Shown here piece after piece: positions 14,693 through 24,530 of a DNA stretch of 64,000 nucleotides. The stretch covers positions 1 through 64,000 of the forward strand of contig NZ_BSTR01000014.1 of the NCBI RefSeq assembly GCF_030269645.1, given 5' to 3'. The notes under the pieces are model-generated. The model saw only the letters and a list, made by a program, of their open reading frames with translations. It made no database searches and was not told the DNA's origin. Positions within the stretch are counted from its first letter, which is position 1. Every line of letters starts with the position of its first letter. The position numbers were made by a program, and so were the translations under genes. The DNA comes from Actinokineospora sp. NBRC 105648. GTDB lineage: Bacteria > Actinomycetota > Actinomycetes > Mycobacteriales > Pseudonocardiaceae.

Positions 14693-14836
14693 TGCTCGAT
14701 CGGGTGGAGTGGCTTTGTTTGGGGCCCCTAAGAAAAGAGGCGCCGGGGTGAAGCGGGTGGGGAAGGGATCACCCACGCCTGGGTCAGGCTAGCGCCTCTT
14801 TTCTCCCCAAACAAAGCCACTCCACCCAATCGAGCA
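14693..14836 (-). repeat. Covarying hairpin element, copy A
   Basis: A 144-bp near-palindrome in the 404-bp gap between two convergent genes. Outer arms start at TGCTCGAT and end at ATCGAGCA and pair over about 28 bp. The inner 12-bp helix is GAAAAGAGGCGC (14732-14743) with GCGCCTCTTTTC (14792-14803). The minus strand is the orientation that matches copies B and D by core similarity. In that strand the single outer-helix mismatch is T-G. It sits 3' of the minus-strand ArsR/SRPBCC operon. Copy A differs from the others in both helices, and each change is matched on the partner arm. Confidence 0.85.
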
Positions 14837-14950
14837 GGTGTGCTGTGCGCGAGCGGTTCCAGCTGGGTGGAGGAGGAGGGCGGAAGAAGGGCGGGAGGAC
14901 GGTTGCTTGTCGGCCTCCTGCTTGCCTTCTGCCTCCTGCCATTGGAGCCT

Positions 14951-14982
14951 GAGAGGGGCAGCGCCTAGGTGCTGCCCCTCTC
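14951..14982. terminator. Hairpin at the 3' end of the SRPBCC gene
   Basis: GAGAGGGGCAGC (14951-14962) pairs perfectly with GCTGCCCCTCTC (14971-14982) around an 8-nt loop, 9 bp beyond the stop of the minus-strand gene. It is a probable terminator for the ArsR operon. Confidence 0.6.
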
Positions 14983-14991
14983 CTTTGTGGA

Positions 14992-15471
14992 CTAGCCTTC
15001 GATGGTCTTCAGGACCTCGGCGAGGCGGTCCATGGAGTCGCGGATGCCGTGTTCCATGCCGTTGGCGATGTGCTGGTCCCTGGCCTCGACGGACAGGCCG
15101 ACTGAGACGCTGTGGACGGTGGTCCTGCCGTTGTGCTCGGTGAAGTCGATCTTCTCCAGGGCGACGTCGCCGGGCATGCCCTCGAACTCGAAGGTCTGGA
15201 TGATCCCGTCGGCGAGTGACGGCGTGCCGTGGAAGACGCCTCGGAACGTGTACTCGCCGCCTTCGGGGTCGGTGTGGATGTAGCGGTAGCCGCCCGCGTG
15301 GTGCAGGGTCCAGTTGTCGACCTTCATGGTCAGCCTGCGGGGGCCGAGCCACTGCGCGACCAGGTCCGGGTCGGTGTAGGCGCGGAAGACCAGGGCGGCG
15401 GGGGCGTCGAACTCGCGGGTGATCTCGACGCTGTGCGAGCCGGGCCGGGCGGTGATGACGGTGTCGCTCAT
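14992..15471 (-). CDS. SRPBCC-domain protein (AHSA1/CalC-like)
   Basis: 159 residues from ATG 15471. SITREF-DAPAALVFRAYTDPDLVAQWLGPRRL and later GGYRYIHTDPEGGEYTFRGVF are the hallmarks of the activator-of-Hsp90-ATPase-like START superfamily, a hydrophobic-cavity fold. The start overlaps the stop of the upstream ArsR gene (ATGA). ArsR plus SRPBCC pairs are common in actinobacteria, but the ligand and role are not known. Confidence 0.88.
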   Translation of the reverse strand: MSDTVITARPGSHSVEITREFDAPAALVFRAYTDPDLVAQWLGPRRLTMKVDNWTLHHAGGYRYIHTDPEGGEYTFRGVFHGTPSLADGIIQTFEFEGMPGDVALEKIDFTEHNGRTTVHSVSVGLSVEARDQHIANGMEHGIRDSMDRLAEVLKTIEG

Positions 15472-15848
15472 GGGTTCTCCTCGGTGTCCTTGTTCTCGGT
15501 GTCGTTGTCTTCGGTGTTGTCTTGTTCGGTCTGCTGCAGCTGGCTGAGCAGGTCGTCGAGCCGGTTGTGGCTCTCGGTCCAGTACTCGCGGTAGCTCGCC
15601 AGCCATTCGGTCGCGTCGAGCAAGGGTTGTGCCTCCAGGTGGCTGAGGCGGGCGGTCGCCTGGCGGCTGCGCGAGATGAGCCCGGCCTGCTCGAGCACCT
15701 TGAGGTGCCGCGAGACCGCCGGTTGCGACATCGCGAACGGTGCCGCGAGCTCGGCCACGTTGGCGTCGCCGGTGCGCAACCGCAGCAGGATCGCCCGCCG
15801 GGTCGGGTCGGCGAGGGCCCCGAACACGGCGCTCAGCTGGTCTGTCAT
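15468..15848 (-). CDS. ArsR-family transcriptional regulator
   Basis: 126 residues with a winged helix-turn-helix (LSAVFGALADPTRRAILLRL, then MSQPAVSRHLKVLEQAGLI). No metal-binding Cys pair is visible, so it belongs to the non-metal ArsR group that partners with SRPBCC proteins. The acidic C-terminal tail is rich in Glu, Asp, Asn and Thr. It is coupled to the SRPBCC gene and probably autoregulates from the short region before 15848. Confidence 0.88.
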   Translation of the reverse strand: MTDQLSAVFGALADPTRRAILLRLRTGDANVAELAAPFAMSQPAVSRHLKVLEQAGLISRSRQATARLSHLEAQPLLDATEWLASYREYWTESHNRLDDLLSQLQQTEQDNTEDNDTENKDTEENP

Positions 15849-15926
15849 CCATAACCGTTTCGTTCTAGAAGGGATGTGTTAAGGATGCATCGGGGTGGCG
15901 GATCCGTCAAGGGGGGCTTCGGATCG

Positions 15927-15948
15927 AGTTCCGATGAAGTTCACGCGA
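15927..15948 (+). promoter_or_regulatory. Candidate PHO box upstream of phoD
   Basis: Two adjacent 11-bp units, AGTTCCGATGA (15927-15937) and AGTTCACGCGA (15938-15948), repeat the GTTC core at exactly 11-bp spacing. This is the layout of the actinobacterial PhoP-binding PHO box (GTTCACC-type direct repeats). The site ends 44 bp before the phoD start. PhoD is an established PhoP target in Streptomyces, so phosphate control is likely. Confidence 0.5.
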
Positions 15949-15992
15949 TCAGTGGGTGTGACACTTACCTTGCCGGTGTATCACTGACAGGC

Positions 15993-17630
15993 GTGACTCC
16001 CACCACCCCGTTCGACCGCCGCGTCTTCCTCAAGTCCTCCGCCGTCGCCGGTGGCGCGCTGCTGGTCCCCGCCGCGCTCGCGGGCACCGCCAACGCCGCC
16101 GCCGTGCCGCAGTTCGCCCACGGTGTCGCCTCCGGTGACCCGCTGCCCGACGGTGTCCTGCTCTGGACCCGCGTCACCCCCACCCCCGAATCCGCCCCCG
16201 GCTCCGGTGTCGGCCCCGCCGTCGAGGTTCGCTGGGAGGTGGCCACCGACTCCGCGTTCGCCTCGGTCGTGCGGTCCGGCGCCGTCCAGACCGGGCCCGA
16301 CCGCGACCACACCGTCAAGGTCGCCGTCGCGGGGCTGAGCCCGGCGACCACCTACTTCTACCGCTTCACCCTCGACGGTGTGCGCTCCTCGACCGGCCGC
16401 ACCCGCACCGCGCCCTCGGTGAACGCCGACGTCAGCAAGCTGCGCCTGGGCCTGGTCTCCTGCTCCAACTGGCAGGCGGGCTACTTCTCGGCCTACCGGC
16501 ACCTCGCCGCGCGCACCGACCTCGACGGCGTGCTGCACGTGGGTGACTACCTCTACGAGTACCAGGTGGGCGGTTTCGGTGCGCGGGGCGTCACCATCCG
16601 CCCGCACCAGCCCGCCACCGAGGTGCTCACCCTTGCCGACTACCGGCGCAGGCACGCCCAGTACAAGACCGACCCCGACCTGACCGCGCTGCACGCCGCA
16701 CAGCCCTGGTTCATCACCTGGGACGATCATGAGTACGCCAACGACACCTGGTCCGGCGGTGCCGACAACCACCAGCCGAACGAGGGCGACTGGAACGCGC
16801 GCAAGGCCGCCGCCCGGCAGGCGTACTTCGAGTGGATGCCGGTCCGCCAGGGGCCCGGTGGGGAGATCTACCGCCGGTTCCGCTGGGGTAGGCTGGCTGA
16901 ACTGTCCCTTTTGGACCTGCGCAGCTACCGCTCCAAGCAGACCACCCCGTCCAGCGGCGACCCGGCCGACCCGAGCCGGACGATCACCGGCGACGCGCAG
17001 ATGGACTGGCTCAAGGGCGGCCTGGCGGGCACCGACGCGAAGTGGAAGCTGGTCGGCAACTCGGTGATGATCACGCCGATCTCGCTGGGCAACGTCGAGT
17101 CGCGCTTCCTGGAGTCGCTGGGCTCCCTGCTCGGCCTGCCGATCGGCAGCGTCGCCGCCAACGCCGACGCCTGGGACGGCTACACCGCCGACCGCCAGGA
17201 ACTGCTCGGCCACCTCAAGGACAACCGGGTCAAGAACACGGTCTTCCTGACCGGCGACATCCACTCCTCCTGGGGCGCCGACATCCCGCTGGACCGTTCG
17301 AGCTACTGGTGGAACGGCAACTCGGTGGCCACCGAGTTCGTCACCACCTCGGTCACCAGCGACAACATCGACGACCTGCTCAAGGTCGACCCGCGCACGC
17401 TGTCCGTGGCCGCCGAGACCGCGCTGTACGCGGGGAACTGGCACCTCAAGTACATCGAGCTGGACTCGCACGGCTACTCGGTGGTCGACGTCAACCCCCA
17501 GCGCGTCCAGACCGACTGGTACTACGTGGCCGACCGCCTCAGCCCGACCTCCGGGGTCAAGTACGCCAAGTCCCTGGCCACCGCCGACGGCACGCAGAAG
17601 GTCAAGTCCGCGACCGGCCCGGTCGCCTGA
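15993..17630 (+). CDS. phoD: Alkaline phosphatase PhoD (Tat-exported phosphodiesterase/phosphatase)
   Basis: 545 residues from GTG 15993. A twin-arginine signal (RRVFLKSS then a hydrophobic stretch to GTANA) indicates Tat export in folded form. Next come a fibronectin-like N-terminal domain and the PhoD metallophosphatase core, with LVSCSNWQ, HVGDYLYEY, ITWDDHEYANDTW and FLTGDIHSSW supplying Fe/Ca ligands. It releases phosphate from extracellular phosphoesters. The upstream PHO-like repeats suggest induction by phosphate limitation. Confidence 0.92.
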   Translation: MTPTTPFDRRVFLKSSAVAGGALLVPAALAGTANAAAVPQFAHGVASGDPLPDGVLLWTRVTPTPESAPGSGVGPAVEVRWEVATDSAFASVVRSGAVQTGPDRDHTVKVAVAGLSPATTYFYRFTLDGVRSSTGRTRTAPSVNADVSKLRLGLVSCSNWQAGYFSAYRHLAARTDLDGVLHVGDYLYEYQVGGFGARGVTIRPHQPATEVLTLADYRRRHAQYKTDPDLTALHAAQPWFITWDDHEYANDTWSGGADNHQPNEGDWNARKAAARQAYFEWMPVRQGPGGEIYRRFRWGRLAELSLLDLRSYRSKQTTPSSGDPADPSRTITGDAQMDWLKGGLAGTDAKWKLVGNSVMITPISLGNVESRFLESLGSLLGLPIGSVAANADAWDGYTADRQELLGHLKDNRVKNTVFLTGDIHSSWGADIPLDRSSYWWNGNSVATEFVTTSVTSDNIDDLLKVDPRTLSVAAETALYAGNWHLKYIELDSHGYSVVDVNPQRVQTDWYYVADRLSPTSGVKYAKSLATADGTQKVKSATGPVA

Positions 17631-17633
17631 GCC

Positions 17634-17670
17634 CTTCCGCGGGTGGGCGGCCTCAGCCCACCCGCGGAAG
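17634..17670. terminator. Bidirectional hairpin between phoD and the lipoprotein gene
   Basis: CTTCCGCGGGTGGGC (17634-17648) pairs perfectly with GCCCACCCGCGGAAG (17656-17670) with a 7-nt loop. The loop holds the stop codon of the minus-strand lipoprotein gene, so one hairpin serves both convergent genes. Confidence 0.75.
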
Positions 17671-18591
17671 CCCGGCCCAGACCTGCTCGGCGAGCCCGGT
17701 GGCCCGGTCGCACACCTGCGCCATCACACCACCCTTGACAGCCAGGGTGAGCCTCACGTTCTCCCGCGCCCCACCGGCCCCGAACGGGATGTGGGTCGTG
17801 TTCAAGACGCAGTGCACCTCACTGCCACCCGGCAACTCCAGCCGCCCGGTAGGCCGACCAGCGACCGGCCGCTGCGGCGCACCGAACGGGGCAGACGAGC
17901 CGACGCCAAAGCTGATCCGCAGGGTCGTGGTGGCGTCCGTCCACTCGCACATGTGCTCGGCGGGCCAGTTCCGGTACTTCGGGAACGAGTCCGCGACCGT
18001 CCGGGGGAGCGCGCCGCAAGCGTTCGCGGTCGCCACCGAGTTGGCCGGGAACACGCGATGCCGCACGGCGGACGGCCCCTTGGCCAACCGCTCGAGCACC
18101 TTCGCGAACCCCCTGTCCAACGCCTCACACAGGCCGGCAGGCTTGGGCCCCTCGGTCGGCTGGCGAGCTTGGGCGGTCAGGGCCATCTTGTCGTCGACCA
18201 ACACCAGCCTGCCGCAGGGAACCAACGGCGCACTGTAGCGAGCGTGCCGAAAACCCTTCTCGCTCTTGATACTCGAGTGATCCTCGATCTGCGCCAACCA
18301 CTCGACCAGCCCGACCGAGAAGACCGACGGACCACCCCCACCGGGGTTCACGGTGAACGCGCACTCGTCCAGCGAACCCGGATCCATCGCCCGATCAGCG
18401 CCGAAGTCGACGGGCTCGACCAGGGAACAGGGGTCCAGCGTGGTCAGATCACCGAGCGCGGCAGCCACGTCGACGCTGGACGGAACGTAGTCCGGGACGG
18501 GCTTGGCAGCGGACGGGGGTGGGGAGACGACCTCGGTGCAGCCGGCGGCGAACACGGCCAAACACAGCAGTAACAGAAGCTTGAGCCGCAT
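17653..18591 (-). CDS. DUF3558-type lipoprotein
   Basis: 312 residues. MRLKLLLLLCLAVFAAGC is a lipoprotein signal with Cys18 as the lipidated residue, followed by a Pro/Ser-rich spacer. The mature part appears to hold two related halves, each with LDPCSLV/ACGALPRTV-type helices and a Cys pair (DECAFTV, MCEWTDA), as in DUF3558 surface lipoproteins. It should be anchored on the outer face of the membrane. The molecular role of this family is unknown. Confidence 0.75.
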   Translation of the reverse strand: MRLKLLLLLCLAVFAAGCTEVVSPPPSAAKPVPDYVPSSVDVAAALGDLTTLDPCSLVEPVDFGADRAMDPGSLDECAFTVNPGGGGPSVFSVGLVEWLAQIEDHSSIKSEKGFRHARYSAPLVPCGRLVLVDDKMALTAQARQPTEGPKPAGLCEALDRGFAKVLERLAKGPSAVRHRVFPANSVATANACGALPRTVADSFPKYRNWPAEHMCEWTDATTTLRISFGVGSSAPFGAPQRPVAGRPTGRLELPGGSEVHCVLNTTHIPFGAGGARENVRLTLAVKGGVMAQVCDRATGLAEQVWAGLPRVG

Positions 18592-18776
18592 GTCCTTCGA
18601 TCCCCCCGAGAGATGTGCCCTCACCACTGGCGGGCCGGATCCTACAAGAGGCTAACCCCAACCCATCGCGACTTGGCAGAGGTCCTTAGGTCCCAAGCCC
18701 CACGCAGCCAAGCCGACACGATCTCTAATTCTCTCTAGATCTGAAGCCCTACGCTTCGCAACACCCGTTACGGATG

Positions 18777-18917
18777 TGCTCGATTCAGTGGACTCGCTTC
18801 GTGTGGGGGGAGAGCACCGCTAAACTTGCCGTGTGGTGGGGATGCCCTTCACCCGCCCTTTTTTCACCACCGCGGTGCTCTAGGGGCCCCGCACGAAGTG
18901 AGTTCACTGAATCGAGC
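18777..18917 (+). repeat. Covarying hairpin element, copy B
   Basis: 141 bp. Outer arms begin TGCTCGAT and end ATCGAGC and pair over about 28 bp. The three deviations inside this helix are all G-T pairs in the plus strand. The outermost T faces a C at the very tip. The inner helix is GAGCACCGC (18812-18820) with GCGGTGCTC (18872-18880), perfect. The 3' side between the helices reads TAGGGGCCCC, whose CCCC pairs with GGGG on the 5' side and leaves a TAGGGG bulge. The apical part carries GATGCCCTTCACCC. Confidence 0.85.
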
Positions 18918-18997
18918 CCGCTCTTACTCGGGTCCACACGGCGTGCGACCCTCATCGACCGGGCGTAGCTCATACAGGTTGCCCGACTAAGACGCAG

Positions 18998-19139
18998 GCT
19001 CGATCTGGCGAACTCCCTTTGCGCGGGGCCCCTAGAGCACCGCTGTGGGGAAAAAGCGTGGGGTGAAGGGCATCCCCACCACCAGGTCAAGGTTAGCGGC
19101 ACTCCTCCCCCACACAAAGGGAGTCCGCCAGATCGAGCA
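18998..19139 (-). repeat. Covarying hairpin element, copy C
   Basis: 142 bp, inverted relative to copy B. The inner helix arms are GAGCACCGC (19035-19043) and GCGGCACTC (19096-19104). Read on the minus strand (the B orientation), the two imperfect pairs of this helix and the three in the outer helix are all G-T. Read on the plus strand they would all be A-C. The TAGGGGCCCC and CCCTTC core segments are conserved. It lies 3' of the minus-strand protein gene at 19330, with a 29-bp tandem repeat in between. Confidence 0.85.
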
Positions 19140-19195
19140 TGTCCGTAACGGGTGTTGCGTTCCGTAGGGCTTGAGAATTAGGGAATGAAGGGCAA

Positions 19196-19294
19196 AGGGA
19201 TGGAGATTTAAGGGTGAAGAGCTAAGGGATGGAGATTTAGGGGTGAAGAGCTAAGGGATGGAGATTTGGGTTGAAGAGCCGAGTCAAGGGATGG
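19196..19294 (+). repeat. 29-bp tandem repeat (about 3.3 copies)
   Basis: Units starting AGGGATGG lie at 19196, 19225, 19254 and 19287. The first two periods are exactly 29 bp and the third is 33. Each unit reads AGGGATGGAGATTT followed by a GGTGAAGAGCTA-type second half. Units are contiguous with no spacers. The array is unusually AT-rich for this chromosome. Confidence 0.9.
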
Positions 19295-19329
19295 AAAACC
19301 TGCAACCGAAGAGGGAGGATGTCACAGTG

Positions 19330-19911
19330 TCAGCCTGTGTACAGGATCAAGCTGTAAGCGCTCAGTACGGGCTTGAGTGGGGCGAAGTATCCTGTGCCGC
19401 CGGAGGTGCAATTCCCTGAACCGCCCACGATGATGCCCTGCGCTTGTCCGCCGGACATGACTGGTGCGCCGGTGTCGCCCGGTTCGACGCAGAGGTTCGT
19501 CCGGGTGAGTCCGGTTAGTGTGCCGCCGGGGAAGTTCACCGTTTGGTTCTTGGCCTGGATGGTCCCGCAGCGCCAGCCGGTGGTTGGTCCGTAGCGGCAC
19601 ACCGGAGCGCCGATCGGGGCCTCGGTCGCGCCCTTGACCGTTGTCGTGGTTCCGGGTCCGTTGCGCACCAACGGTGTCGAGGTGGAGCCTGCCGGTGCGG
19701 GTACCACGCCCAGCGGTCCGCTGGTGCCCGAGCAGGTGCCGGTGGTGATGATCGAGCGGGCGCCTGCCGCGTTGTGGGCGTTGAAGCCGATCACGCATTG
19801 CTTGGTGCCCAACAGGATCCGGTCGCCGCCGACGAGGATCTGGCCTGCTGCTGCCGTTGGTGCGGTGAGGACGATCAGGACTAGGGCGGTCAACGTGGCG
19901 AGAACCCGCAT
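19330..19911 (-). CDS. Secreted S1-family (streptogrisin-like) protein lacking catalytic His and Ser
   Basis: 193 residues with a Sec signal peptide (cleavage near TAAAG). The fold markers of chymotrypsin-like S1 proteases are present: the CVIGFNA start strand, the Cys pair near residue 60, GWRCGTIQ, and GDTGAPV near the C-terminus. At the two key positions the usual AGHC reads TGTC (Thr59 for His) and the usual GDSGGP reads GDTGAP (Thr147 for Ser). With both replaced it should not be a classical serine protease. It may be a binding or decoy protein, or a Thr-based variant. The reading frame is intact. Confidence 0.75.
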   Translation of the reverse strand: MRVLATLTALVLIVLTAPTAAAGQILVGGDRILLGTKQCVIGFNAHNAAGARSIITTGTCSGTSGPLGVVPAPAGSTSTPLVRNGPGTTTTVKGATEAPIGAPVCRYGPTTGWRCGTIQAKNQTVNFPGGTLTGLTRTNLCVEPGDTGAPVMSGGQAQGIIVGGSGNCTSGGTGYFAPLKPVLSAYSLILYTG

Positions 19912-20001
19912 GGTGCCTGCCTTCCCGAGTGGCCGATGGGTCGACGGTAGGCGCCGTACCGGGGTGCGGGAAGCCGCTGATCGGACGAGGGTGTTCCCGT
20001 T

Positions 20002-20736
20002 CTAGGGGGTGCGGCGGCGCAGTGTGCTCGCGCCGAGTACCAGGGCGAGCAGTGCGCAGGCGGCCACGATCACCAGGTTGCGGACCAGCGTGCCGTCCAC
20101 CTCGGCCGAGCGGGTCACCTGGGTGAGTGCGTCGACCGCGTAGGACAGCGGCATCACGTCGGACAGCCAGTTCAACAGCCACCCCATGTTCTCGCGCGGC
20201 TGGAGCAGTCCGCAGAGCAGGAACTGCGGTAGGACGAACAGCGGCATGAACTGGATCGCCTGGAACTCGCTGGTGGCGAAGGCGCTCACCAGCAGGCCCA
20301 GGGCCATGCCGAGCAGCGCGTCCAGCACCGCGATCAACAGCAGTGTCCACACCGAACCGGTCACCTCGAGTCCCAGCCACAGCACCGAGACCGTGGTGGC
20401 GATGCCGACCTGGGCCACGGCCAGCGCGCCGAAGGCCACCGCGTAGCCCAGGATCAGGTCGAACCGGCCCATCGGCATGGTCATCAGCCGTTCCAGGGTC
20501 GCGGTGGTGCGCTCGCGCAGCGTGGTGACCGAGGCGACCAGGAACATGATCACGAACGGGAAGACCCCGAGCAAGGCGGGGGCGGTGTGGCTGAAGAGCT
20601 GCTCGCTGTTGAACACGAAGCGCAGCAGGGTCATCAGGAGGGTGGGGACCAGCAGCAGCATCACGACCGTGCGCGGGTCGTGCTTGAGCTGGGTCAGGAT
20701 GCGCCGCGCGGTCGCGGCGGTGATGGCCGCGCTCAC
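20002..20736 (-). CDS. ABC-2 type transporter permease
   Basis: 244 residues with six hydrophobic segments, and VTTLRERTTATLERLMTMPMGRFDLILGY, typical of the ABC-2 (drug-export/NodJ-like) permease signature. GTG 20736 overlaps the stop of the ATPase gene by three bases, so the two form one exporter. The substrate is unknown. Such pairs often export drugs or lipids. Confidence 0.87.
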   Translation of the reverse strand: MSAAITAATARRILTQLKHDPRTVVMLLLVPTLLMTLLRFVFNSEQLFSHTAPALLGVFPFVIMFLVASVTTLRERTTATLERLMTMPMGRFDLILGYAVAFGALAVAQVGIATTVSVLWLGLEVTGSVWTLLLIAVLDALLGMALGLLVSAFATSEFQAIQFMPLFVLPQFLLCGLLQPRENMGWLLNWLSDVMPLSYAVDALTQVTRSAEVDGTLVRNLVIVAACALLALVLGASTLRRRTP

Positions 20737-21464
20737 GCCGCCGCCTCCGTGGTCCGGACCAGGTGCAGGAAGGCCTGCTCCAGGTCGTCCTGCCCGGTCG
20801 CGGCGCGCAGGCCGTCCGGGGTGTCGTCGGCGAGGACGAGGCCCTCGCGCATCAGCAGCAGCCGGTCGCAGCGGGCCGCCTCGTCCATCACGTGGCTGGA
20901 GACCAGCAGTGTGGTGCCCGCGGCGGCGAGCCGGTGGAACAGCCGCCACAGGTCGTCGCGCAGCACCGGGTCGAGGCCGACCGTCGGCTCGTCGAGGACC
21001 AGCAGGTCGGGGGAGCCGAGCAGGGCCACGGCCAGGTTCGCCCGACCGCGCTGTCCGCCGGAGAGGCTCCCGACGAGCTGGTCGGCGCGCGCGGTCAGGT
21101 CGACGTCGGCGAGCACCCGGGCCACGTCGGTGGCGGGCGCGCCGAGCACGGCGGCGAAGTAGCGCAGGCACTCGGCGACGGTCAGGTCGGCGTAGACCGC
21201 CGGGTTCTGGGTGGCGTAGCCGATCCGGCTGCGCAACGACGGGTGGCCCGCGGGCTCGCCCAGCACTTCGACGGTGCCGCCCGCGACGACCTGCACCCCC
21301 ACGACGGCGCGCATCAGGGTGGTCTTCCCGCAGCCACTGGGCCCGAGCAGGCCGGTGACCGAGCCGCGCGGGATGTCGAAACCGACGCCGCGCAGCACCT
21401 CCCGACCACCGCGGACCACGGTCAGGCCCGCGGCCCGGAGGGCGCTGACCGGTGAATTAGTCAT
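20733..21464 (-). CDS. ABC transporter ATP-binding protein
   Basis: 243 residues with Walker A GPSGCGKTTL (from residue 41), signature LSGGQRGRANLAVALL, Walker B LLVLDEPTVGLDP and a switch His in VSSHVMDEAARCDRLLLM. It matches the DrrA/NodI-like exporters that pair with ABC-2 permeases. The start ATG at 21464 follows a short divergent intergenic region shared with the gene at 21561. Confidence 0.9.
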   Translation of the reverse strand: MTNSPVSALRAAGLTVVRGGREVLRGVGFDIPRGSVTGLLGPSGCGKTTLMRAVVGVQVVAGGTVEVLGEPAGHPSLRSRIGYATQNPAVYADLTVAECLRYFAAVLGAPATDVARVLADVDLTARADQLVGSLSGGQRGRANLAVALLGSPDLLVLDEPTVGLDPVLRDDLWRLFHRLAAAGTTLLVSSHVMDEAARCDRLLLMREGLVLADDTPDGLRAATGQDDLEQAFLHLVRTTEAAA

Positions 21465-21560
21465 GCGTTTAATTCTGCGCGCGCTGAGTTTCCCCCGTCA
21501 AGCCCTTCTCCACCGGCGGTGAACGTCCTAGCGTGATCACCCTCACCGACCGGAGGTTCG

Positions 21561-22085
21561 ATGCCCGCCGACTTAGCCCTGTCCGCGCTGCTCCAGGACT
21601 TGGCCGACGTTCGCCACCGGCTCCGCGGCGACTCCGCGCCCGCCACCTTCCTGGCCCGGCTGCGCGAGGGGGTCGAGGCCTGGGACACCGCCATCGCGGG
21701 CCTGGACGCCGGTGGTGACGCCGCCGACGCGCTGGACCTGGTGGAGCGCGCCTTCGACATGGAGCCGGACTTCGCCGAGGACACCCGGTTGGCCACCGAG
21801 ATGACCCAGTTGGGGGTCGCCACCCCGGCACACCGCTTCCTGGTCGGTCTCGCGCCGATCCGCCGCGACCTGGTCCGGGCCAACCAGCGCGTGGTGACCC
21901 AGCTGCGCCGCGCCGTCGCGCTGGAGCGCCGCACCAGCAGTCGCTGGCGCGGCACCGAGGGCCGGGCCGCCGCCCTGGTCGACCGGGACCTCCAGCTCGA
22001 GGAGGTCCGGGTGCTGGCCAAGACCACCCTGGACCCGATCGTCGAACTGGGCGAGCGCTTCGACACCTGGCGCCTGGCCCGCTGA
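21561..22085 (+). CDS. Hypothetical helical protein
   Basis: 174 residues, with a start supported by GGAGG 6 nt upstream. The sequence is rich in Ala, Arg and Glu, predicted mostly helical, with heptad-like runs (RRDLVRANQRVVTQLRRAVALERR, then DRDLQLEEVRVLAKTTLDPIVELGERF) that may form a coiled coil. No signal, membrane segment or catalytic motif is seen. It is divergent from the ABC exporter and convergent with the TetR gene. Confidence 0.7.
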   Translation: MPADLALSALLQDLADVRHRLRGDSAPATFLARLREGVEAWDTAIAGLDAGGDAADALDLVERAFDMEPDFAEDTRLATEMTQLGVATPAHRFLVGLAPIRRDLVRANQRVVTQLRRAVALERRTSSRWRGTEGRAAALVDRDLQLEEVRVLAKTTLDPIVELGERFDTWRLAR

Positions 22086-22149
22086 CCGCGCGCCGGTCGA
22101 TCCGCCGACCCGACCGTCGACCAGTCCGCCGATCAGTCCACTGTGGAGC

Positions 22150-22722
22150 TCAACCCTCCAGGTAGTGCTGCAGGACCGGTGCCACCACGGCGATCAGCTC
22201 CTCGTCCGGTGCCGAGGCCAGCGGCTCGACCCGCACGACGTAGCGGACCATGGCCAGCCCGACCAGGTGCGCGGCCAGCGCGGTGGCGCGCAGCCGCGGG
22301 ACCCCCAGCGCCTCGGTGACCCGGCCCAGCACGGCCCGCTCCAGGAACTGGCGCAGCAGGTCGGCGGCCTGCTCGTTGGTCGAGACCGAGCGGATCAGGG
22401 CCAGGAAGGCCTTCGACGGCTCCGGCGCGCCCCACAGCGCCAGGAACATCCGCAGCAGCCGCTCGCCGACCTGGGCCCGCGGCCCGGCCAGGATCGTGGC
22501 CACCAGCGCGCCCGGGTCGACCGGGAAGTCCAGCGCGGCCGCGAAGACCTGGTCCTTCGACCCGAAGAAGTGGTGCACCAGCGACGGGTTCACCCCGGCC
22601 TCGCCCGCGATGCCGCGGATCGTGGCCCCGTCGTAGCCGTGCGCGCCGAACTGGGCGCGCGCGGCGGCCAGGATGTGCGCCCTGGTCTCCGTGGGCCCCG
22701 GCCTGCGCCCGGTCTTGGCCAT
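22150..22722 (-). CDS. TetR-family transcriptional regulator
   Basis: 190 residues. The N-terminal helix-turn-helix ([52 protein letters not shown]) is the TetR signature. The C-terminal ligand domain is of the TetR_C group common in actinobacteria. It closely resembles the regulator at 24622 in size and layout. It is divergent from hisF. A candidate target is unknown. Confidence 0.9.
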
Positions 22723-22762
22723 CGGCCCCCCTCGTGGTCGTGGGTCCAGTATCGCCGCCCCG

Positions 22763-22768
22763 TAGGCT
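22763..22768 (+). promoter_or_regulatory. Candidate -10 box of a leaderless hisF promoter
   Basis: TAGGCT, the same hexamer as before priA, ends 7 nt before the hisF ATG. No Shine-Dalgarno sequence is present. Confidence 0.45.
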
Positions 22769-22775
22769 CGGGGTC

Positions 22776-23549
22776 ATGTCAGTAGCGGTTCGCGTGATCC
22801 CCTGCCTCGACGTCGACAACGGCCGGGTGGTGAAGGGGGTCAACTTCACCGACCTGGTCGACGCGGGCGACCCGGTCGCACTGGCCGCCGCCTACGACGC
22901 CGAGGGCGCCGACGAGCTGACCTTCCTGGACGTCACCGCGTCCTCTTCGGACCGCGAGACCACCTTCGACGTCGTCCGGCGGACCGCCGAACAGGTCTTC
23001 ATCCCGCTGACCGTGGGCGGCGGCGTGCGCACGGTCGCCGACATCGACAAGCTGCTGCGCGCGGGCGCGGACAAGGTGGGCGTCAACACCGCCGCCATCG
23101 CCCGCCCGGAGTTCCTCCGCGAGGCGTCCCTGCGCTACGGCGCCCAGTGCGTCGTGCTCTCGGTCGACGCCAGGCGCGTCCCGGAGGGATCGGCCCCCAC
23201 CCCGTCCGGCTTCGAGGTCACCACACACGGCGGCAGACGCGGCACCGGCATCGACGCGGTCGAGTGGGCCGCGCGCGGCCAAGAACTGGGCGTCGGCGAG
23301 ATCCTGCTCAACTCGATGGACGCAGACGGCACCAAGGCGGGCTTCGACCTGGACCTGATCCGCATGGTCCGGGCCAGGGTGGACGTGCCGCTGATCGCCA
23401 GCGGGGGAGCGGGCGCCCTGGAACACTTCCCGCCCGCCATCGCCCAGGGCGCGGACGCGGTGCTCGCGGCCAGCGTCTTCCACTTCGGCCACCTGCGGAT
23501 CGGCGAGGTCAAGGAGACACTGCGCGCGGCCGGGGCGGAAGTCCGGTGA
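22776..23549 (+). CDS. hisF: Imidazole glycerol phosphate synthase, cyclase subunit
   Basis: 257-residue (beta/alpha)8 barrel that closes the imidazole ring using ammonia from HisH. Catalytic Asp12 lies in [18 protein letters not shown] and Asp131 in VLSVDARR. The C-terminal phosphate loop [12 protein letters not shown] is present. ATG 22776 gives the typical start. The stop overlaps the next gene by four bases. Confidence 0.96.
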
Positions 23550-23911
23550 CCAAGCGACCGCTGGAGATCCGCGTCGCCGCCACGATCCTGGCGGCCGCGG
23601 CCGTGGCGTTCGTGGCACTGGGCCTGGTCGGGCTCGCCGCGGGCACCGGCTCACTCCGGTTCCCGATCCTGCTGGCGGTGATCGGCCTGCTCGCCGCCGC
23701 CAGCATCCTGTTCGGCCTACCCCGCGCGGGCGGCCTGGTGATCGGCTTCGCCTCCCTGGCCGCGATCGCCCAAGTCCTGATCGCCCTGGGCGACCTCCCC
23801 GCCTGGGTCCGCGTCGGCACGGGCGTCCTGGCCGCCGCGCACGCCTACGTGGTGGTCCTGCTCCTCACCCGCCCGGCCCGGGAATTCCTCGCGAAAGGCA
23901 CTGCGTCGTGA
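23546..23911 (+). CDS. Small membrane protein between hisF and hisI
   Basis: 121 residues with four hydrophobic segments (about residues 9-30, 36-54, 60-78, 85-107) and basic ends. GTG 23546 sits in the hisF stop overlap, and its own stop overlaps the hisI GTG by four bases, so all three should be co-translated. No family motif is recognised. Confidence 0.78.
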
Positions 23912-24246
23912 CCGAGCTCGACCCACAGATCGCCGGACTGCTCAAGCGCAACGCCGAAGGACTGGTGTGCGCGGTGGTGCAACAGCACGGAACCGGCGAG
24001 GTGCTGATGGTGGCCTGGATGAACGACGAGGCACTCCGCCTAACGCTGGAAACCCGCCAGGCCACTTACTTCTCCCGCAGCCGCAACGAGTTGTGGGTTA
24101 AGGGAGCCACCTCCGGCAACACACAGAAGGTAGTGTCAGCCCGCCTGGACTGCGACGGAGACACGGTGCTCCTAGTGGTAGACCAGGCAGGCGTCGCCTG
24201 CCACACCGGCGACCGAACGTGCTTCGACGCACGAGTCCTGATCTAG
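23908..24246 (+). CDS. hisI: Phosphoribosyl-AMP cyclohydrolase
   Basis: 112 residues, the monofunctional HisI form without a HisE domain. The WMNDEAL motif, [19 protein letters not shown] and the metal-ligand segments DCDGD and CHTGDRTCF are present. It opens the adenine ring of PR-AMP. GTG 23908 overlaps the preceding gene. hisG and hisE are not in this window. Confidence 0.95.
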
Positions 24247-24281
24247 CCAAGACTCCCTTGCGTTTGTTCACCACCTACTAA

Positions 24282-24380
24282 ACCGCAGCGGATAGGCCGT
24301 CCCCGCTGGTACCGCAGCGGATAGGCCGCCCTCGCTGGTACCTCAGCGGAGAGGCCGCCCCTGCTGGTACCGGCGGCCCC
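24282..24380 (+). repeat. 29-bp tandem repeat (about 3.4 copies)
   Basis: Units starting ACC(G/T)CAGCGGA lie at 24282, 24311 and 24340, with a partial fourth at 24369. All periods are exactly 29 bp. Each unit reads roughly ACCGCAGCGGATAGGCCG plus a C-rich GCTGGT end. Units are contiguous. The array sits between the hisI stop and hairpin copy D. Confidence 0.9.
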
Positions 24381-24388
24381 GCTACGGA

Positions 24389-24530
24389 TGCTCGATCTAG
24401 TGGACTCGCTTCGTGTGGGGGGAGAGCACCGCTAAACTCGCCGGTGGTGGGGAATGCCCTTCACCCGCCCTTTTTTTCACCACCGCGGTGCTCTAGGGGC
24501 CCCACACGAAGCGAGTTCACTAGATCGAGC
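24389..24530 (+). repeat. Covarying hairpin element, copy D
   Basis: 142 bp. Outer arms begin TGCTCGAT and end ATCGAGC, with a single G-T pair inside about 28 bp. Inner helix GAGCACCGC (24424-24432) with GCGGTGCTC (24485-24493) is perfect. TAGGGGCCCC and the apical CCCTTCACCCGCC are identical to copy B. It lies in the 375-bp gap 3' of hisI in the same orientation. The remaining 24531-24621 shows no gene. Confidence 0.85.

Follow-up and report, generated by a model that had tools for sequence, protein, structure and literature searches.

A dispersed, high-copy intergenic repeat of Pseudonocardiaceae that keeps a one-strand bulged hairpin and may act as folded RNA at gene ends

Here we report a family of dispersed intergenic repeats in the genus Actinokineospora and other Pseudonocardiaceae, represented by four copies (A to D) in a 64,000-nt stretch of the genome of Actinokineospora sp. 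NBRC 105648 (hereafter the window; contig NZ_BSTR01000014.1, positions 1 to 64,000). The repeat family is real and new to specialists. It combines a strand-specific fold that is maintained in many lineages with high copy number and enrichment at gene ends. We tentatively read it as a non-autonomous, high-copy intergenic repeat whose sense RNA folds at gene ends and which is spread by a trans-acting system, RNA being the favoured identity of the folded molecule. Dispersed bacterial palindromes are often regarded as inert transposon debris, and a repeat family of many genera that keeps an asymmetric fold on one strand contrasts with this view. It becomes testable whether repeats of this kind function as RNA or as single-stranded DNA (ssDNA), and the covariance model now allows the family to be annotated.

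A bulged hairpin in four copies

The positions and strands at which a preliminary description of the window had placed the four copies were confirmed by sequence inspection. The copies, and the parts of copy D, are as follows.

14693..14836, minus strand (the sense strand): copy A, hairpin element; 132.3 bits with R1, a covariance model itself built from the four copies
18777..18917, plus strand: copy B, in a convergent pair (plus then minus) with copy C, 80 nt between them
18998..19139, minus strand: copy C, partner of copy B
24389..24530, plus strand: copy D, flanked by hisI-like and trpE-like open reading frames (ORFs)
24390..24420, plus strand: left arm of the outer helix of copy D, pairing with 24500-24530
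24423..24432, plus strand: left arm of the inner helix of copy D, pairing with 24485-24494
24433..24438, plus strand: unpaired TAAACT of copy D
24471..24477, plus strand: T run on the 3' side of the apical hairpin of copy D
24495..24499, plus strand: AGGGG bulge of copy D, facing GG at 24421-24422
24500..24530, plus strand: right arm of the outer helix of copy D, pairing with 24390-24420

The pattern TGCTCGAT-N(100-130)-ATCGAGC had five matches in the window, copy A being hit on both strands, and none in 100 shuffles. RNA folding z-scores on the sense strands were -13.9, -10.7, -8.6, and -10.7 for A to D, respectively, and none of 200 shuffles equalled them. The opposite strands gave -11.8, -8.5, -7.2, and -11.2, because a palindrome must fold on both; relative to shuffles copy D was slightly stronger on the opposite strand, while its energy was lower on the sense strand.

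Across the family, the element is a bulged hairpin of ~115-160 nt. Its outer helix, about 31 bp in Actinokineospora and 18-30 bp elsewhere, usually ends in GGGG, and an AGGGG-like 3' bulge lies beside GGGG/CCCC, facing a short 5' stretch. The inner helix of ~10 bp is followed by an unpaired motif usually like TAARCT (in a survey whose search pattern itself fixed part of this motif), then by the apical hairpin, which carries a T run of at least 3 in 202 of 207 elements, and finally by the return arms. Elements of other genera keep this architecture with different arm sequences. A T-C mismatch recurs at one fixed site in the outer helix: 12 of the 22 elements examined from other genera have it, as does one element of genome G014, and the site is paired in the remaining examined elements. 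The carriers belong to several genera (loci L309, L311, L313, L315, L318, L324-L330 except L326b, and L231). Shortened derivatives that have lost the core and retain complementary outer arms occur at L259 and in a spacer of G015 orthologous to an element of G005. A conformational switch, in which one segment has two alternative partners, was tried and rejected: in a weak test the mean run was 6.9 versus 5.9 in shuffled sequence, and in further genera the putative switch is better seen, by eye, as a T-bulged nested hairpin.

Compensatory change across the family

The partner arms that the preliminary description had quoted as changing together are present in the sequences of the four copies. 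Twenty-one diverse members were then aligned with MAFFT, and their pairs were counted against shuffles and against partner slides. Pairing was found in 96.0% of 769 cells, a figure favoured by prediction of the structure from the same alignment, and double changes occurred at 31 of 37 pairs. The covariation score was 0.60 compared with 0.20 in shuffles, none of 500 scoring as high, although related sequences can exceed shuffles; sliding the partners by 1-3 columns lowered pairing to 36-50%. The best conserved pairs were those of the outer helix, with 98.4% of its cells paired. The fold is kept by compensatory change across wide sequence turnover.

Complementary arms could also belong to an inert palindromic miniature inverted-repeat transposable element, in which template-switch correction restores one arm from the other without selection on the fold. 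Such arm-to-arm copying would give the pattern seen at one locus of two sister species (L372 and L376), whose outer arms differ by two transversion double changes and no single change. However, the changed variant also occurs at another locus (L378, L382), so that conversion between copies is possible. Correction would moreover erase the asymmetric bulges and the recurrent T-C mismatch, and it does not predict the preference for G-T over A-C pairs described below. We therefore regard this explanation as very unlikely.

Wobble pairs point to one constrained strand

The preliminary description had counted ten G-T and no A-C pairs within the helices of the four copies. The absence of A-C holds, the A-C at the final position examined in B, C, and D falling outside the helix end, whereas the G-T total is 11 (A 1, B 3, C 6 instead of 5, and D 1). 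A first scan that scored G-T and A-C alike yielded 198 long hairpins in 1.92 Mb, of which 20 were dropped as too long or lacking a GGGxCCC core; the 178 core-oriented hairpins comprised 152 unique elements with 232 G-T, 3 A-C, and 26 other non-pairs. With looser criteria and more sequence, a second scan recovered 207 unique intact elements, which carried 228 G-T, 14 A-C, and 52 transversions, so the excess first seen in four copies persists in a larger set. In 172 weak, mostly unrelated palindromes from the looser scan, the corresponding counts were 410, 345, and 768, and the scan method itself is therefore nearly balanced. Counted as distinct contexts, G-T and A-C stood at 40 to 9 in the elements and 322 to 263 in the background (p = 2e-4); counting by cells gives p = 5e-35, a figure that includes relatives many times. 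The inner helix alone gave 104 to 36 by cells and 40 to 7 by contexts.

Such an excess on one strand, against a near-balanced background, shows that constraint acts on one strand, always of the same polarity. DNA hairpins also tolerate G-T pairs, and the bias would look no different if the folded molecule were ssDNA of a single polarity. For this reason, the label of candidate structured RNA family given in the preliminary description stands for the structured family and goes beyond the data in its assignment to RNA.

Copy number and distribution

Whole-genome model searches scored limited numbers of candidates, and every copy count is a minimum. In the window's own genome (G000; 8.43 Mb), 150 of 150 scored candidates matched R1, that is, at least 150 copies, and a hairpin count of 20 copies in 544 kb extrapolates to about 310 genome-wide. 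What had been described as a four-copy element thus consists of real copies, which belong to a high-copy dispersed repeat and not to a set of four. R1 had matches in 17 of 41 genomes, including all 16 of Actinokineospora (G012 doubtful) and one of another genus. The single G012 match (L067) was set aside as being a G-rich palindrome. R2, a broader covariance model from 21 diverse members, had no match there among 150 scored candidates; by the R1 and R2 searches the family is present in 15 of the 16 genomes of the genus, the window's genome included, G012 being a congener seemingly without it. In a Pseudonocardiaceae sample of 150 genomes from 46 genera, R2 (E up to 1e-5) found the family in 28 genomes and 10 genera. 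A pattern scan of named genomes found at least 52 stretches, in Actinokineospora terrae, A. diospyrosa, A. globicatena, A. inagensis, and A. auranticolor, with one stretch coming from Actinosynnema sp. ALI-1.44. Covariance-model searches thus revealed many homologues outside the window. A strict core pattern matched only the window's own genome among 296 genomes drawn from the class, but it also missed a congener, so that variants may exist elsewhere.

The view that no family with such a layout had been described agrees with Rfam and with a surface-level literature search, which named none. Rfam gave no match in the window at gathering score, only tRNAs and one sub-threshold long noncoding RNA match away from the element in 16 loci, and none up to E 0.1 in 20 loci of other genera. 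Five pattern matches in viral contigs were taken as chance, because none folds into the long hairpin, and two element queries found none in plasmid records.

Enrichment at gene ends

Using genes called by a codon-usage script made for this analysis, we assigned 112 single elements to 59 convergent, 26 sense, 17 antisense (both between co-directional genes), and 10 divergent positions. Convergent spacers account for 18% of spacer bases, with the caveat that the 112 elements come from all loci, many of them chosen for holding an element, and the spacer bases from loci of at least 20 kb. At those longer, unselected loci, 32 elements were distributed as 13 convergent, 7 sense, 10 antisense, and 2 divergent. 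In the window, copies A, C, and D lie 155, 190, and 142 nt beyond the stop of a same-strand ORF, in agreement with the preliminary description, which placed them 3' of a gene in their own orientation. As an argument this carries less weight than it might, orientation across the family being without significant bias.

The enrichment between convergent genes would suit a dispersed intrinsic terminator, in which the apical hairpin and T run end transcripts and the arms only aid forming or copying. A strict test for a hairpin followed by T also succeeded in 57 of 207 elements on the sense strand compared with none on the antisense strand and about 2 in base-shuffled sequence. Yet the test failed in the other 150 of 207, sense orientation is not significant, and a stop at the T run would leave untranscribed the right arms, which take part in the best conserved pairs. 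After the tRNA Gln-Glu gene pair, moreover, a separate hairpin is seen by eye in all 16 spacers, and a role as tRNA terminator was dropped. We consider a terminator unlikely as an account of the whole element.

How the folded strand may act

Under our tentative reading, the hairpin would form in sense transcripts that pass through the element or begin within it, and at gene ends it would serve as a barrier or a site of processing. Transcription might stop at the U-tailed apical hairpin, or a double-strand RNase might cleave the long duplex. A trans-acting system would recognise the folded strand and spread or homogenise the copies; we infer such a system because the wobble bias is mostly common to related copies and independent of neighbouring genes.

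Several results weigh against this reading. Elements antisense to both neighbours show the same bias (24 G-T, 0 A-C), and changes private to one copy (9 G-T, 3 A-C, 7 transversions) do not differ from background; selection in place is therefore poorly supported in Actinokineospora, and the bias is a feature of the element as it propagates. In the eight intermediate-scoring elements, the counts were 19 G-T, 14 A-C, and 20 transversions, and a simple count in other genera gave 18, 4, and 39, in part because pairs were also drawn beyond where the helix ends. The preference for sense over antisense positions is not significant (26 vs 17, p = 0.22), and the window has 5 terminator-like sites, not above the 3.9 (sd 2.2) of shuffles.

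The main rival, which we regard as doubtful, is that the folded molecule is ssDNA of one polarity, serving as a mobility intermediate or as a priming or recombination site. REP sequences, attC sites, and IS200/IS605 ends are recognised as hairpins in ssDNA. In favour of this reading, the wobble bias belongs to the element itself, however its surroundings are transcribed. Clustering fits as well: in G005, tandem and inverted clusters contain repeat units of ~240-320 bp, and 52 of the 128 positions listed (of 150 matches) fall into 23 clusters with spacing often of 240-320 bp. Tandem arrays in the element flanks favour the 5' side (80 of 151, compared with 27 of 151 on the 3' side). Against ssDNA stands the G005 contig, which has no strand bias (31/32 and 36/29 among the same 128 positions, the origin being assumed at the contig start) and so gives no hint of a replication-linked ssDNA route, as well as the absence of the element from plasmid records with the two queries. 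The Y1 transposase (PF01797, RAYT) has no match in G000 and is absent from 14 of the 16 genomes of the genus; found in 2 of 16, it was rejected as a partner. A reverse transcriptase was rejected likewise, with 3 matches in G000 but none in 13 of the 16 Actinokineospora genomes.

Among the G005 loci, L254, L256, and L258-L260 hold head-to-tail and inverted arrays, with an exact unit of ~268 bp at L254; L264, at the start of the contig, was left out of the analysis. The flanking tandem arrays often have a period of 27-30 bp, with units unlike one another. Element ends were defined as the end of pairing and may understate the true unit; in Actinokineospora, repetition also extends some tens of bases into the flanks, so that the mobile unit may reach beyond the hairpin.

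Persistence at orthologous loci

Comparison of the hisI region in seven genomes gave 797 orthologous spacer pairs; an element was present on one or both sides in 19 of them and on both sides in 3, all at one convergent locus. One of the six G000 elements in this comparison is an artefact of the inverted B-C pair. Directly after hisI, an element is present in 3 of 16 genomes, once in the opposite orientation. The spacer 3' of the tRNA Gln-Glu pair holds an element in 12 of 16 genomes, in the same orientation in all 12 and with species-typical sequence.

In another genus, the 6 examined elements of G136 (of 7) all have a counterpart in G085, where 7 of 8 matches were examined and L380 had no counterpart among the loci compared. 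The match extends well past the element in five pairs and is short (283 bp) in L378/L382. Identity is 93-98% in the elements and 59-94% and 53-94% in the 200-bp flanks, coding and noncoding sequence taken together; in 2 of the 6 pairs, one flank equals or exceeds the element. The outer arms show two single differences, both of which leave G-T; double changes occur twice, in a single pair of elements. In L379, pairing in the inner helix is broken by a G-G mismatch.

Relation to known repeats and hairpins

In the available part of one account (PMC2229807), ERIC/IRU and Correia/NEMIS repeats have TA ends and target duplications, and their transcripts form a long 5'-to-3' stem-loop with a possible role in the fate of neighbouring mRNA. 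Cleavage by RNase III is a further mark of NEMIS. The present element is similarly ~100-200 bp long, intergenic, and present in many copies, and its predicted folds likewise form one long stem-loop. In contrast, TA was found on both sides in 0 of 161 elements, and target duplications were no longer than with shuffled partner flanks. The strand-specific wobble bias seen here is not met in that part of the account. REPINs and BIMEs associated with RAYT, as far as they are covered in the available part of PMC3116915, are also extragenic, clustered, and often in inverted pairs, while the element described here is a ~140-nt hairpin, a single unit with two bulges, in a genome without Y1 transposase. 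Its own 17 neighbouring pairs, overlapping loci included, comprise 11 plus then minus, 4 minus then plus, and 2 tandem.

By eye and without statistical control, the stem shows a TT[G/T]AC-like sequence, separated by 15-19 nt from a TANNNT-like hexamer that lies in the open loop; among 43 sequences surveyed with a pattern that fixed part of the motif, 2 lacked it and 3 were mis-oriented. The ssoA single-strand origins and Frpo ssDNA promoters likewise consist of a folded strand of one polarity, whereas the element is chromosomal, high-copy, and absent from plasmid records with the two queries. It is conceivable, though quite improbable, that the sense strand, once folded, serves as a hairpin promoter or as a site of priming, at which RNA polymerase would engage the single-stranded element with the hexamer open and the TT[G/T]AC-like sequence in duplex. 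If so, it would be a chromosomal analogue of plasmid single-strand origins in hundreds of copies, and would convert a single-stranded mobile intermediate to duplex, the 5' tandem arrays being scars left by this synthesis.

Further features of the window

19166..19279, minus strand: 29-bp tandem array of 3.9 copies on the 5' side of copy C, its unit unlike that of the array beside copy D
24282..24372, plus strand: 29-bp tandem array of 3.1 copies on the 5' side of copy D
24446-24465: terminator-like site called inside copy D

The ORFs preceding copies A, C, and D have Pfam matches to AHSA1, trypsin, and PRA-CH, respectively, and copy B is located upstream of an ORF that runs antisense to it and matches DUF3558 below threshold.

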